From Catellatospora sp. IY07-71 (GTDB lineage Bacteria; Actinomycetota; Actinomycetes; Mycobacteriales; Micromonosporaceae), in assembly GCF_018326265.1 (NCBI RefSeq), contig NZ_AP023360.1, positions 2,843,501-2,907,500 of the forward strand: a DNA stretch of 64,000 bases. Direction: 5' to 3'. Below the pieces are notes generated by a model that saw only the letters and a list, made by a program, of their open reading frames with translations, did no database searches and was not told where the DNA came from. Both the position numbers and the translations under genes were made by a program. Shown in pieces: positions 20,473 to 22,607 of this stretch; the stretch's first letter is position 1; the number at the start of each line of letters is the position of its first letter.

Positions 20473-20522
20473 GAAGGGCACCTTCTACCACGGAAAACGA
20501 TAAGAAGGTGCCCTTCCTTTCA
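20473..20522. repeat. Family C palindromic repeat, copy C4, adjoining the aroG stop
   Basis: Arms GAAGGGCACCTTCT (20473-20486) and AGAAGGTGCCCTTC (20503-20516) pair perfectly. Read on the minus strand the repeat begins with TGAAAGGAAGG and the TGA is the stop codon of the DAHP synthase gene. Confidence 0.85.
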
Positions 20523-21575
20523 GTGGGTGCGGCGGGCGGTGACGGCGGCGGCGAGGGTGGCCAGGGTCTGCTCGGTGGTCTGCCAGCTCATGCAGGCGTC
20601 GGTGACGGACTGGCCGTAGACGAGGGGCTCGCCGGAGTCGAGGTCCTGGCGGCCGGCCACGATGAAGCTCTCCAGCATCACGCCGCCGATGCCGTGCTGG
20701 CCCTCGGCGATCTGCGCGGCGATCTCGTCGGCGACGACGGCCTGGCGCTCGTGGCTCTTGCCGCTGTTGCCGTGGCTGGCGTCGATCACCAGGTGGTGCT
20801 TGAGGCCCGCCTTCTCGGTCAGGGCCAGCGTCGCGGCGACCGACTCGGGGCCGTAGTTGGGGCCGCTGCGGCCGCCGCGCAGGATCACGTGGCAGTCCTC
20901 GTTGCCGGTGGTGGTGACCACGGCGGCGCGGCCGTCGGGGTCCACGCCGAAGAAGACGTGGCTGTTGCGGCCCACCTCACAGGCGTCGATGGCGCCCTGG
21001 ATGCCGCCGTCGGTGGTGTTCTTGAAGCCGACCGGCATGGACAGGCCGGAGGCGAGCTGCCGGTGCACCTGGCTCTCGATGGTGCGGGCGCCGATCGCAC
21101 CCCAGGTCACCGCGTCGGCGATGTACTGCGGGCTGGTCGGGTCGAGGAACTCGCAGCCGACGGGCATGCCGAGATCGAGGATGTCGAGCAGCAGCGTGCG
21201 GGCGGTACGCAGGCCCCGGTGCACGTCGTAGGTGCCGTCCAGCCCCGGGTCGTTGATGAGGCCCTTCCAGCCGATCGTGGTGCGCGGCTTCTCGAAGTAG
21301 ACGCGCATCACGACGCACAGCTCGCGCTGGTGCTGCCGGGCCGCGTCGGCGAGCCGCCGGGCGTAGTCCATGGCCGCCTCGGTGTCGTGCACCGAGCACG
21401 GGCCGACCACCACGAGCAGGCGGTCGTCGCGGCCGGTGAGCACGTCGCGCACCTCCTGGCGCGATCGTTGCACCAGCGCGGCGCGATGCTCGCCGAGCGG
21501 CAGCTCGGTCAGCAGCTCACGCGGCGGCTGCAGCGGCTCGAACGAGAGCACGTGTACGTCGTTGGTCTGGGTCAT
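20520..21575 (-). CDS. aroG: 3-deoxy-7-phosphoheptulonate (DAHP) synthase, class I
   Basis: The 351-residue enzyme joins phosphoenolpyruvate and erythrose 4-phosphate, the first step of the shikimate pathway to Phe, Tyr and Trp. Class I AroG/F/H signatures are clear: VVVGPCSVHD, MRVYFEKPRTTIGWKG, VGFKNTTDGG, ILRGGRSGPNYG and DASHGNSGK, with the metal-binding Cys, His, Glu and Asp. It is transcribed leftward behind a leader that encodes an aromatic-rich peptide (21702-21755) and a hairpin, so it is probably controlled by attenuation. Actinobacteria often also have a class II enzyme. GGGAG precedes the ATG. Confidence 0.95.
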   Translation of the reverse strand: MTQTNDVHVLSFEPLQPPRELLTELPLGEHRAALVQRSRQEVRDVLTGRDDRLLVVVGPCSVHDTEAAMDYARRLADAARQHQRELCVVMRVYFEKPRTTIGWKGLINDPGLDGTYDVHRGLRTARTLLLDILDLGMPVGCEFLDPTSPQYIADAVTWGAIGARTIESQVHRQLASGLSMPVGFKNTTDGGIQGAIDACEVGRNSHVFFGVDPDGRAAVVTTTGNEDCHVILRGGRSGPNYGPESVAATLALTEKAGLKHHLVIDASHGNSGKSHERQAVVADEIAAQIAEGQHGIGGVMLESFIVAGRQDLDSGEPLVYGQSVTDACMSWQTTEQTLATLAAAVTARRTH

Positions 21576-21652
21576 CGGAGCGTCTCCCGGTTCTCAGGGA
21601 CGGGCCCCGCCCTGATGAGGTCCCAGGCCAGCCCGTCCTTCGACATGGCAAA

Positions 21653-21677
21653 GGGCGAAGACGTGACGTCTTCGCCC
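21653..21677 (-). terminator. Attenuator hairpin upstream of aroG
   Basis: On the minus strand GGGCGAAGACGT pairs with ACGTCTTCGCCC around a single central base and is followed by TTTGCC. It sits between the leader peptide gene and aroG, 77 bases before the aroG start, where an intrinsic attenuator is expected. Confidence 0.65.
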
Positions 21678-21678
21678 T

Positions 21679-21738
21679 GCTGGCTCTGGGTGGTCTCGCG
21701 GTCAGCGCATCGAACCGCCGGCTCCACCCAGAGCCAGC
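21679..21738 (-). promoter_or_regulatory. Leader stem overlapping the leader-peptide codons
   Basis: A perfect 15-base pairing joins 21724-21738 (inside the leader peptide codons 6-11) with 21679-21693, one base upstream of the terminator-like hairpin. A ribosome stalled at the Tyr-Trp-Arg-Phe codons would cover the 5' arm; one that finishes the peptide would disturb the 3' arm. The exact alternative structures need a folding calculation. Confidence 0.6.
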
Positions 21739-21755
21739 GTAAAGCGCCAATACAT
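21702..21755 (-). CDS. Aromatic leader peptide of the aroG attenuator
   Basis: A 17-residue open frame, MYWRFTLALGGAGGSMR, begins 180 bases before aroG. Codons 2, 3 and 5 are Tyr, Trp and Phe, the three end products of the pathway that aroG opens. A TAAGGT box (complement of 21772-21777) lies 16 bases before the ATG. The composition, position and the two hairpins that follow fit a transcription attenuator that senses charging of all three aromatic tRNAs. Confidence 0.7.
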   Translation of the reverse strand: MYWRFTLALGGAGGSMR

Positions 21756-21884
21756 GCGAACCACGAGAGCGACCTTACCCCATCCCGCGCCCGTCCATCC
21801 AACTTCCCGTATGGCGGAACCGGACACCCGGGCAGGTATGTCCGCGCCTGTGGCGACGCTCATGGCACGGTCCGCGCCGGTACG

Positions 21885-21944: not shown

Positions 21945-22607
21945 GTGCCGACCGCACAGGAACTGCCCACCGAACCGCTGCACGCCACGCGCACGCTGTC
22001 CGACAACGTCTACCGCTGGCTGCGCGAGCAGATCGTGCTCGGCAAGATCGGCCCGAACGAACCGCTGGTCGAGGCGGTCATCGCGGAGAAGCTACAGGTC
22101 AGCCGTACCCCCATCCGGGAGAGCCTGCAGCGCCTGGCCGCCGACGGCCTGATCGTCTCCCACCGCCGCCGCTGGATCGTGCGCCAGCACGGCCGGGACG
22201 AGATCGTCGCCATCTACGAGGTACGCATGGCGCTGGAGTCCTTCGCGGCCCGCTTCGCCGCCCAGCGCGCCACCGACGCCGAGTTGGCCGCCATCGCCGC
22301 ACACTGCGCCAGCTGGACCGGCACCGGCAGCAACGACGACTTCGTGGTCTTCAACGACCGCTTCCACCACATGATCGTCGAGGCCGCGCACAACCCCCGC
22401 CTGGCCCGCGTCATCGAGCAGAACCACCTCTACTTCTTCAACGACCAGATCGCCGCGCACTACCGCCCCGACGAGGTCGCCGCCTCCCAGTCCGAGCACG
22501 AAGCCCTGGTCGAGGCACTCCACACCCGCGCCCCCGACCGCGCCGCCGACCTCTCCCGCCACCACGCCGAAACCGCCCTCGACCTGATCCTCACCCGCCT
22601 CTTCTGA
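21945..22607 (+). CDS. GntR-family regulator, FCD subgroup
   Basis: The 220-residue protein has a winged helix (DNVYRWLREQIVLGKIGPNEPL and QVSRTPIRESLQRLAADGLI, about residues 18-80) and an all-helical FCD effector domain with metal/ligand residues in FNDRFHHMIVEAAHNPRL and SEHEALVEALH. Such regulators respond to small acids or sugar acids. The GTG at 21945 has GGCGGCAG upstream. Targets are not evident from the neighbours. Confidence 0.88.
   Translation: MPTAQELPTEPLHATRTLSDNVYRWLREQIVLGKIGPNEPLVEAVIAEKLQVSRTPIRESLQRLAADGLIVSHRRRWIVRQHGRDEIVAIYEVRMALESFAARFAAQRATDAELAAIAAHCASWTGTGSNDDFVVFNDRFHHMIVEAAHNPRLARVIEQNHLYFFNDQIAAHYRPDEVAASQSEHEALVEALHTRAPDRAADLSRHHAETALDLILTRLF

Follow-up and report, generated by a model that had tools for sequence, protein, structure and literature searches.

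The window analyzed here is a 64,000-nucleotide stretch of the 8.6-Mb genome of Catellatospora sp. IY07-71. Its minus strand encodes aroG (20520–21575), a class I DAHP synthase of 351 amino acids (Pfam PF00793, E = 2e-89) whose nearest named match, from C. bangladeshensis, is 98% identical. The ribosome binding site of aroG, GGGAGA (21583–21588, minus strand), was identified by its duplex with an assumed 16S tail sequence. No second match to the aroG protein is found in the genome at E ≤ 0.001. A class II DAHP synthase is encoded elsewhere (L251, G000:C1:8217110-8218393); by inspection, it has no aromatic leader, and its own gene may be leaderless, with TACCCT located just before the ATG. A divergent GntR/FCD regulator gene (21945–22607, plus strand) lies approximately 180 nt away from the start predicted for the leader and might act on aroG.

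All features of the region upstream of aroG described below lie on the minus strand. A first-pass annotation had proposed that this region holds an attenuator that reads aromatic amino acid supply through a 17-codon leader peptide starting with MYWRF. The −10-like box TAAGGT is present where it had been placed (21772–21777), and the frame exists as described, with ATG 21755 opening MYWRFTLALGGAGGSMR, 17 codons that end at a stop codon at 21704–21702. The start codon and length assigned to this frame, in contrast, are probably incorrect. An in-frame GTG at 21764, 7 nt past TAAGGT, extends the frame upstream, and in three of 11 genomes of the genus the codon at ATG 21755 is instead Arg or Ser (VVRRYWRF, VVRSYWRF). 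Since the GTG start and the −10 box are kept in relatives where this ATG is replaced, the most plausible leader is a leaderless one of 20 codons (VVRMYWRFTLALGGAGGSMR, 21702–21764 with its stop codon), and GTG 21764 is most likely the better start. The predicted transcription start coincides with this GTG. The leader frame is the same in all 11 Catellatospora-genus genomes examined. Among 184 homologous rows, which include one false leader (L250), the box-to-start spacing is 7 nt in 133, 6 nt in 40, and 8 nt in 11, in a search that allowed 5–9 nt and favored 6–8 nt. The control codons, TAT-TGG-CGC-TTT (Tyr-Trp-Arg-Phe, 21741–21752), include two synonymous codons, TAT and TTT, that are rare here.

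The leader is followed by two adjoining structures, both of which agree with their initial description. Segment A (21724–21738), within the leader codons, is the 5′ arm of a perfect 15-bp stem, and its 3′ arm, segment B (21679–21693), is flush with hairpin T. This 12-bp hairpin (21678–21652) ends in a short run of three T, made up of the final paired T plus the two that follow, such that the whole element spans 21650–21678. Farther downstream, a second layer is proposed, in which segment C (21622–21638) pairs either with B, through 21632–21622, or with segment D, through 21638–21631. Segment D, tentatively placed at 21598–21605, is separated by 9 nt from the ribosome binding site of aroG downstream. 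Through C and D, the functional region may, with less certainty, run beyond the interval first annotated to approximately 21598. The region 21780–21576 has a folding z of −5.1, and none of 200 dinucleotide shuffles is equally stable. Neither the window nor 18 related loci give a gathering-score match to the curated Rfam families searched (T-box, amino acid leaders, and others).

To determine how widely this arrangement occurs, 214 actinobacterial aroG upstream regions were examined in four sets (46, 90, 69, and 9). The first set comprises 46 of 80 named loci, the 34 left out being non-actinobacterial by title. The second contains 90 regions; these come from 89 genomes, out of 169 with a match among the 200 Micromonosporaceae genomes searched. 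The third was drawn from a class-wide sample of 393 genomes. Among its 87 matching genomes, four were known beforehand; of the remaining 83, 69 were used, the 14 left out belonging to f2 (10) and f17 (4). The fourth consists of nine regions, from the nine of 41 genomes of one genus that matched; this genus is taken to be Corynebacterium, as the start of aroF in L245 is also found in a C. glutamicum primer given in the excerpted text of PMC7356990. Certain genomes appear twice among the 214 (for example, L003 and L084), and the figures given are therefore counts of regions.

Leaders with the leaderless layout are found in 43 of 46, 89 of 90, 43 of 69, and 8 of 9 regions of the respective sets, 183 in total. 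A strict scan for TANNNT, a 6–8-nt spacer, a start codon, and a short frame containing Tyr and Phe recovers 181 of the 214 true regions, compared with none of 214 reverse complements and none of 2140 shuffles. By family, the class-wide sample has the leader in f20 (19/20), f2 (12/12), f25 (3/3), f6 (3/3), f42 (2/2), f34 (2/2), f43 (1/1), and f3 (1/1). The leader thus occurs in nine families, including that of the window, two of which are represented by a single region each. By the strict scan, it is absent in the same sample from f17 (0/23), f19 (0/1), and f4 (0/1).

Homologs without the frame, which had been anticipated as possible counterevidence, do exist: all 23 f17 regions and a few single cases lack it. 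The f17 regions (L188, L194–L212, L214, L232, and L233, from a family in which 27 genomes matched) carry no leader, and several of them encode the end of another protein at the leader place. The attenuator seems to have been lost from, or never present in, f17. In the first two sets, the regions in which no leader is found are L040, L046, L052, and L164. L164 (G189:C1:3276843-3277463) belongs to a second class I aroG copy without a leader, the first copy (L163) having one. L046, from Saccharopolyspora, contains B- and C-like stem segments upstream of aroG and no recognizable aromatic leader frame.

A covariance model of the element, R1, finds one place in the window's genome, upstream of aroG, at E = 1.4e-19, this locus being among its training rows. 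A single further match, at E = 0.03, falls on the opposite strand at the same place, and no other place is found at E ≤ 1. In the phylum, R1 matches four of 197 genomes (E up to 0.001), each directly upstream of a class I aroG, and three of these four are non-training rows. The filters of this phylum search lose weak matches, as illustrated by the aroG of G230, which has the leader and was missed.

The choice of Tyr and Phe codons in the leaders is nearly exclusive. Across 156 leaders, one of which is false, TAT outnumbers TAC by 170 to 4 and TTT outnumbers TTC by 163 to 20. In 92 aroG genes, the preference is reversed (TAT 7 versus TAC 476; TTT 2 versus TTC 713), and the aroG gene of the window has no TAT and no TTT codons. 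GC-ending codons account for 23 of 356 Tyr and Phe codons in the leaders, 538 of 757 other codons before or within the cluster, and 1313 of 1817 codons after it. Because the remaining leader codons are mostly GC-ending, the preference for TAT and TTT is not general AT-richness. If one tRNA reads both Tyr codons, and likewise one both Phe codons, slower wobble decoding would be the likelier benefit of TAT and TTT. Sparsely used control codons have been predicted to make attenuation hypersensitive, a prediction to which the same source attaches a condition regarding which tRNA decodes the control codon (PMC1183508, excerpted text).

For the counts of amino acids in the leaders, L250, a false leader admitted by a loose filter, was removed, which leaves 183 rows and 155 distinct leaders. 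Tyr is present in all 155, Phe in 153, and Trp in 124, with all three in 123. The Tyr-Trp-Phe trio that had first drawn attention to the locus is thus common; Trp, however, is dispensable, and the trio is not universal.

The pairing of the segments was evaluated using sequence-clustered representatives, which are still related to one another. In alignment A3 (22 of 27 diverse representatives), 89.1% of the cells of A:B and T are paired versus 78.4% in shuffled alignments, and 63 double-change cells are observed versus 20.8. When A:B, T, and C:D are considered jointly in alignment A1 (35 sequences), the corresponding values are 84.8% versus 80.1% and 59 versus 19.6; further pair types are no more numerous in A1 than in its shuffles (33 versus 33.1). 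In the main helix of hairpin T, both sides have changed at eight of 11 pairs. A partner-swap test on 60 representatives favors the native partners for A:B (z = −9.8), B:C (−7.8), C:D (−5.5), and T (−17.7), with control pairings giving −2.3 (A:D), −1.3 (B:D), +3.5 (A:C), and 0.3 (the 5′ arm of T with D). The same test was applied within groups of 22 YWRF-type, 12 mycobacterial-type, and 26 Micromonospora/Actinoplanes-type representatives, the mycobacterial set hardly varying. The signal is weaker than in the pooled test; in this order, z is −2.8, 0.8, and −5.9 for A:B; −2.1, 0.0, and −4.1 for B:C; and −2.9, 0.3, and −0.8 for C:D. By these comparisons, stems A:B and T can be regarded as established, pairing B:C as likely, and pairing C:D as tentative.

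The spacing of these elements relative to the leader is tightly kept. In the 148 homologs that have both A:B and T, the median distance to A is 4 nt from the last aromatic codon and 14 nt from the first, and the stop codon lies a median of 23 nt from T. The gap between B and T is 0–1 nt in 123 of the 148, in line with the original observation of no obvious overlap between stem and terminator, which is correct for the window and for most homologs. As A:B abuts T without overlap, no antiterminator is evident, and an antiterminator overlapping the 5′ arm of T, as in classical trp-type systems, is not found in the window. Alternative pairings were also considered and rejected. A hidden antiterminator formed by B and the 5′ arm of T is without signal in each of three groups (z = 1.0, −1.4, and 2.3); B with the 3′ arm of T has the opposite sign in the swap test (+2.8); A with the 3′ arm of T gives no signal (−0.4); and the −1.9 of A with the 5′ arm of T is inside the range of the other controls.

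Folding models with a ribosome footprint of 15 nt from the P-site codon illustrate what these spacings could imply. With the ribosome stalled such that the first aromatic codon is in the A site, segment A is free and A:B folds in 64 of 67 models (35/35, 25/27, and 4/5). With the ribosome at the stop codon, A is parted from B, and B:C folds in 59 of 67 (29/35, 26/27, and 4/5). The pairs of the T stem, in contrast, are formed to mean extents of 0.97, 0.97, 0.96, and 0.97 in four ribosome states across 148 homologs, with lowest single values of 0.09, 0.70, 0.01, and 0.70, and in none of the 148 does T formation differ by more than 0.3 between the Tyr stall and the stop codon. Masking by the ribosome, as had been suggested, shifts the folding between A:B and B:C according to its position and leaves T unchanged on average. 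Because T forms about equally across the ribosome states, competition with A:B does not govern T.

The recurrence of the leader, the swap tests, the geometry, the rare codons, and the compensatory changes are consistent with the proposal of an attenuator that reads aromatic supply. The element is probably a ribosome-mediated attenuator of the aroR type that couples the synthesis of class I DAHP synthase to charged aromatic tRNA. Transcription would begin on GTG 21764, the first of the 20 codons of a leaderless leader. A shortage of Tyr, Trp, or Phe would stall the ribosome on TAT, TGG, or TTT, immediately ahead of A; with an adequate supply, the ribosome would continue to the stop codon, some 23 nt short of hairpin T. 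Pairing of A with B would depend on where the ribosome stands. Under plentiful supply, T, together with the B:C pairing where present, would stop expression, and in shortage transcription would continue into aroG. We infer the start site, the stalling, and the direction of the response from sequence comparison. The run of T in the window is short, at three, which counts against this proposal; the median is also three in 62 representatives of the non-Corynebacterium groups.

How A:B acts on T is the least certain part of this proposal. In a YFWF-type group (Amycolatopsis, Nocardia, Rhodococcus, and others; five representatives), B lies by eye within the last hairpin, and A:B would thus be a true antiterminator there. 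This arrangement suggests that A:B is the ON state, an assignment that is mildly favored overall. In the lineage of the window, A:B and T do not compete, and the classical mechanism is therefore not directly transferable. The converse assignment, in which masking of A is the ON state, is less favored but retains appreciable weight; a version in which masking of A would act on its own and free the ribosome binding site was rejected because access to that site shows no consistent change. A mechanism that dispenses with an antiterminator, and that we regard as unlikely, is that A:B, joined flush to the terminator, would bring the stalled ribosome to a position only a few nucleotides from its base. 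A ribosome on the aromatic codons would otherwise be approximately 60–75 nt upstream of the terminator; once bridged, it would block terminator closure or couple to the polymerase. The tight codon–A and B–T spacings, also present in Corynebacterium-type loci without a clear C, would be the signature of such a mechanism.

The strongest rival to the aroR-type attenuator is a translational one, in which leader translation would set C:B versus C:D and thereby open or close the aroG ribosome binding site, with T serving as a spacer. In agreement with this explanation, D sits 9 nt from that site, and native B:C and C:D outperform swapped partners across all groups. Furthermore, with a 5% cutoff relative to shuffles, B has a better-than-random partner downstream of T in 44 of 62 representatives versus none of eight Corynebacterium-type loci, whose T run is longer; among the latter, L244 comes nearest, with 16 of 200 shuffles. 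The computed access to the binding site, however, barely changes: under stall, the site is more open in 29 of 67 folded models, and opening it costs over 1 kcal less in 26 of 67 models and more in 7 of 67. B:C barely exceeds shuffles on A1 (70.5% versus 70.0% of cells paired, although slid versions reach at most 53.8%), and C:D, paired in 60% of cells on A1, is unsupported within the Micromonospora/Actinoplanes-type group (z = −0.8). On this balance, translational control is doubtful. A plain intrinsic terminator beside an unrelated conserved short protein, such that the peptide rather than ribosome position matters, would explain why the peptide motif and T are both well conserved; it is very improbable given the rare codons, the location of the A arm in codons with compensatory changes, and the variable order of the aromatic residues, which point to RNA and decoding. 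Although one window alone could have this appearance, a chance open frame beside an ordinary hairpin is refuted by 181 of 214 regions against 0 of 2354 control sequences, and its probability is negligible.

Short frames with a very high content of Phe, Tyr, and Trp (such as FYFYFFWYLRPLADREG) also precede class I DAHP synthase genes of several proteobacteria, where they were sought within 420 nt upstream of the match. These loci include L058, L077, L078, and L079 (Burkholderia, Paraburkholderia), L053, L072, L073, and L082 (Bordetella, Pusillimonas), L062 (Rhizobium), L064 (Dyella), and L068. Ten of the 11 loci, all but L078, were scanned against Rfam and gave no match, and the literature matches listed for such proteobacterial leaders concern unrelated work. 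The frames suggest a separate aromatic attenuator.

DAHP synthase commits carbon to all aromatics, including many actinomycete natural products, and the comparison reveals a conserved RNA structure before the class I enzyme in nine families. The excerpted text of a 2005 survey reports no conserved RNA structures before actinobacterial Phe and Tyr operons (PMC1262725). The geometry of the stem and terminator raises a mechanistic question, for which the codons and stems are simple targets of study.

The C. glutamicum aroF gene presumably encodes a class I DAHP synthase, and Neshat et al. reportedly described in 2014 that its leader, aroR, is leaderless. With the predicted start site, the −10 box spacing of the window fits such a leaderless layout. 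In the excerpted reports, aroR is a Phe-Tyr-Phe leader before aroF, the transcription of which increases under Phe limitation (PMC11802643, PMC7356990), and an aroR transcript has been reported (PMC4046766). Tyr availability is described as being without effect on aroF (PMC11802643, excerpted text), which speaks against all codons being sensed equally. Because aroR is already published, an aromatic leader for DAHP synthase is not new, and the novelty claimed for it in the first-pass annotation does not hold. Among the literature matches listed, under open license and by title and start of abstract, no actinobacterial DAHP synthase leader is described outside Corynebacterium; the present comparison extends the finding of this attenuator beyond that one genus.

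The window shares with aroR a class I DAHP synthase target and a leader with clustered aromatic codons. It also shares with the eight Corynebacterium-type loci a TANNNT box 7 nt before the start and a GGCTCCGG-like stem flush with the terminator-like hairpin, segments A, B, and T being present in all eight. The leaders of these loci are FYF-like. The window differs from aroR in having Tyr-Trp-Phe in place of Phe-Tyr-Phe, a GTG start, and the candidate extra segments C and D, and from the eight loci in its T run (3 versus 4–6), the hairpin being at the same place. Like classical trp and his attenuators, it has control codons beside a switching segment and a terminator-like hairpin; unlike them, it has no antiterminator overlapping T, is probably leaderless, and combines three aromatic amino acids. 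For the branched-chain attenuators of C. glutamicum ilvBNC (PMC11857589) and M. tuberculosis ilvB1 (PMC13236596), the excerpted texts describe a ribosome position that selects between terminator and antiterminator; these are mutually exclusive, whereas A:B and T of the window are not. The leader peptides of Streptomyces lividans resemble that of the window in being mostly leaderless, with a TAnnnT box and, in some, no U tract; the eight described in the excerpted text specify Leu, Trp, Ala, Ile, Met, and Thr, with none for DAHP synthase (PMC8079986). Set against these systems, the element is probably an aroR-type attenuator, conserved and most likely leaderless, that senses aromatic amino acids through rare codons; what is new is its existence as a widespread variant, not the kind itself.
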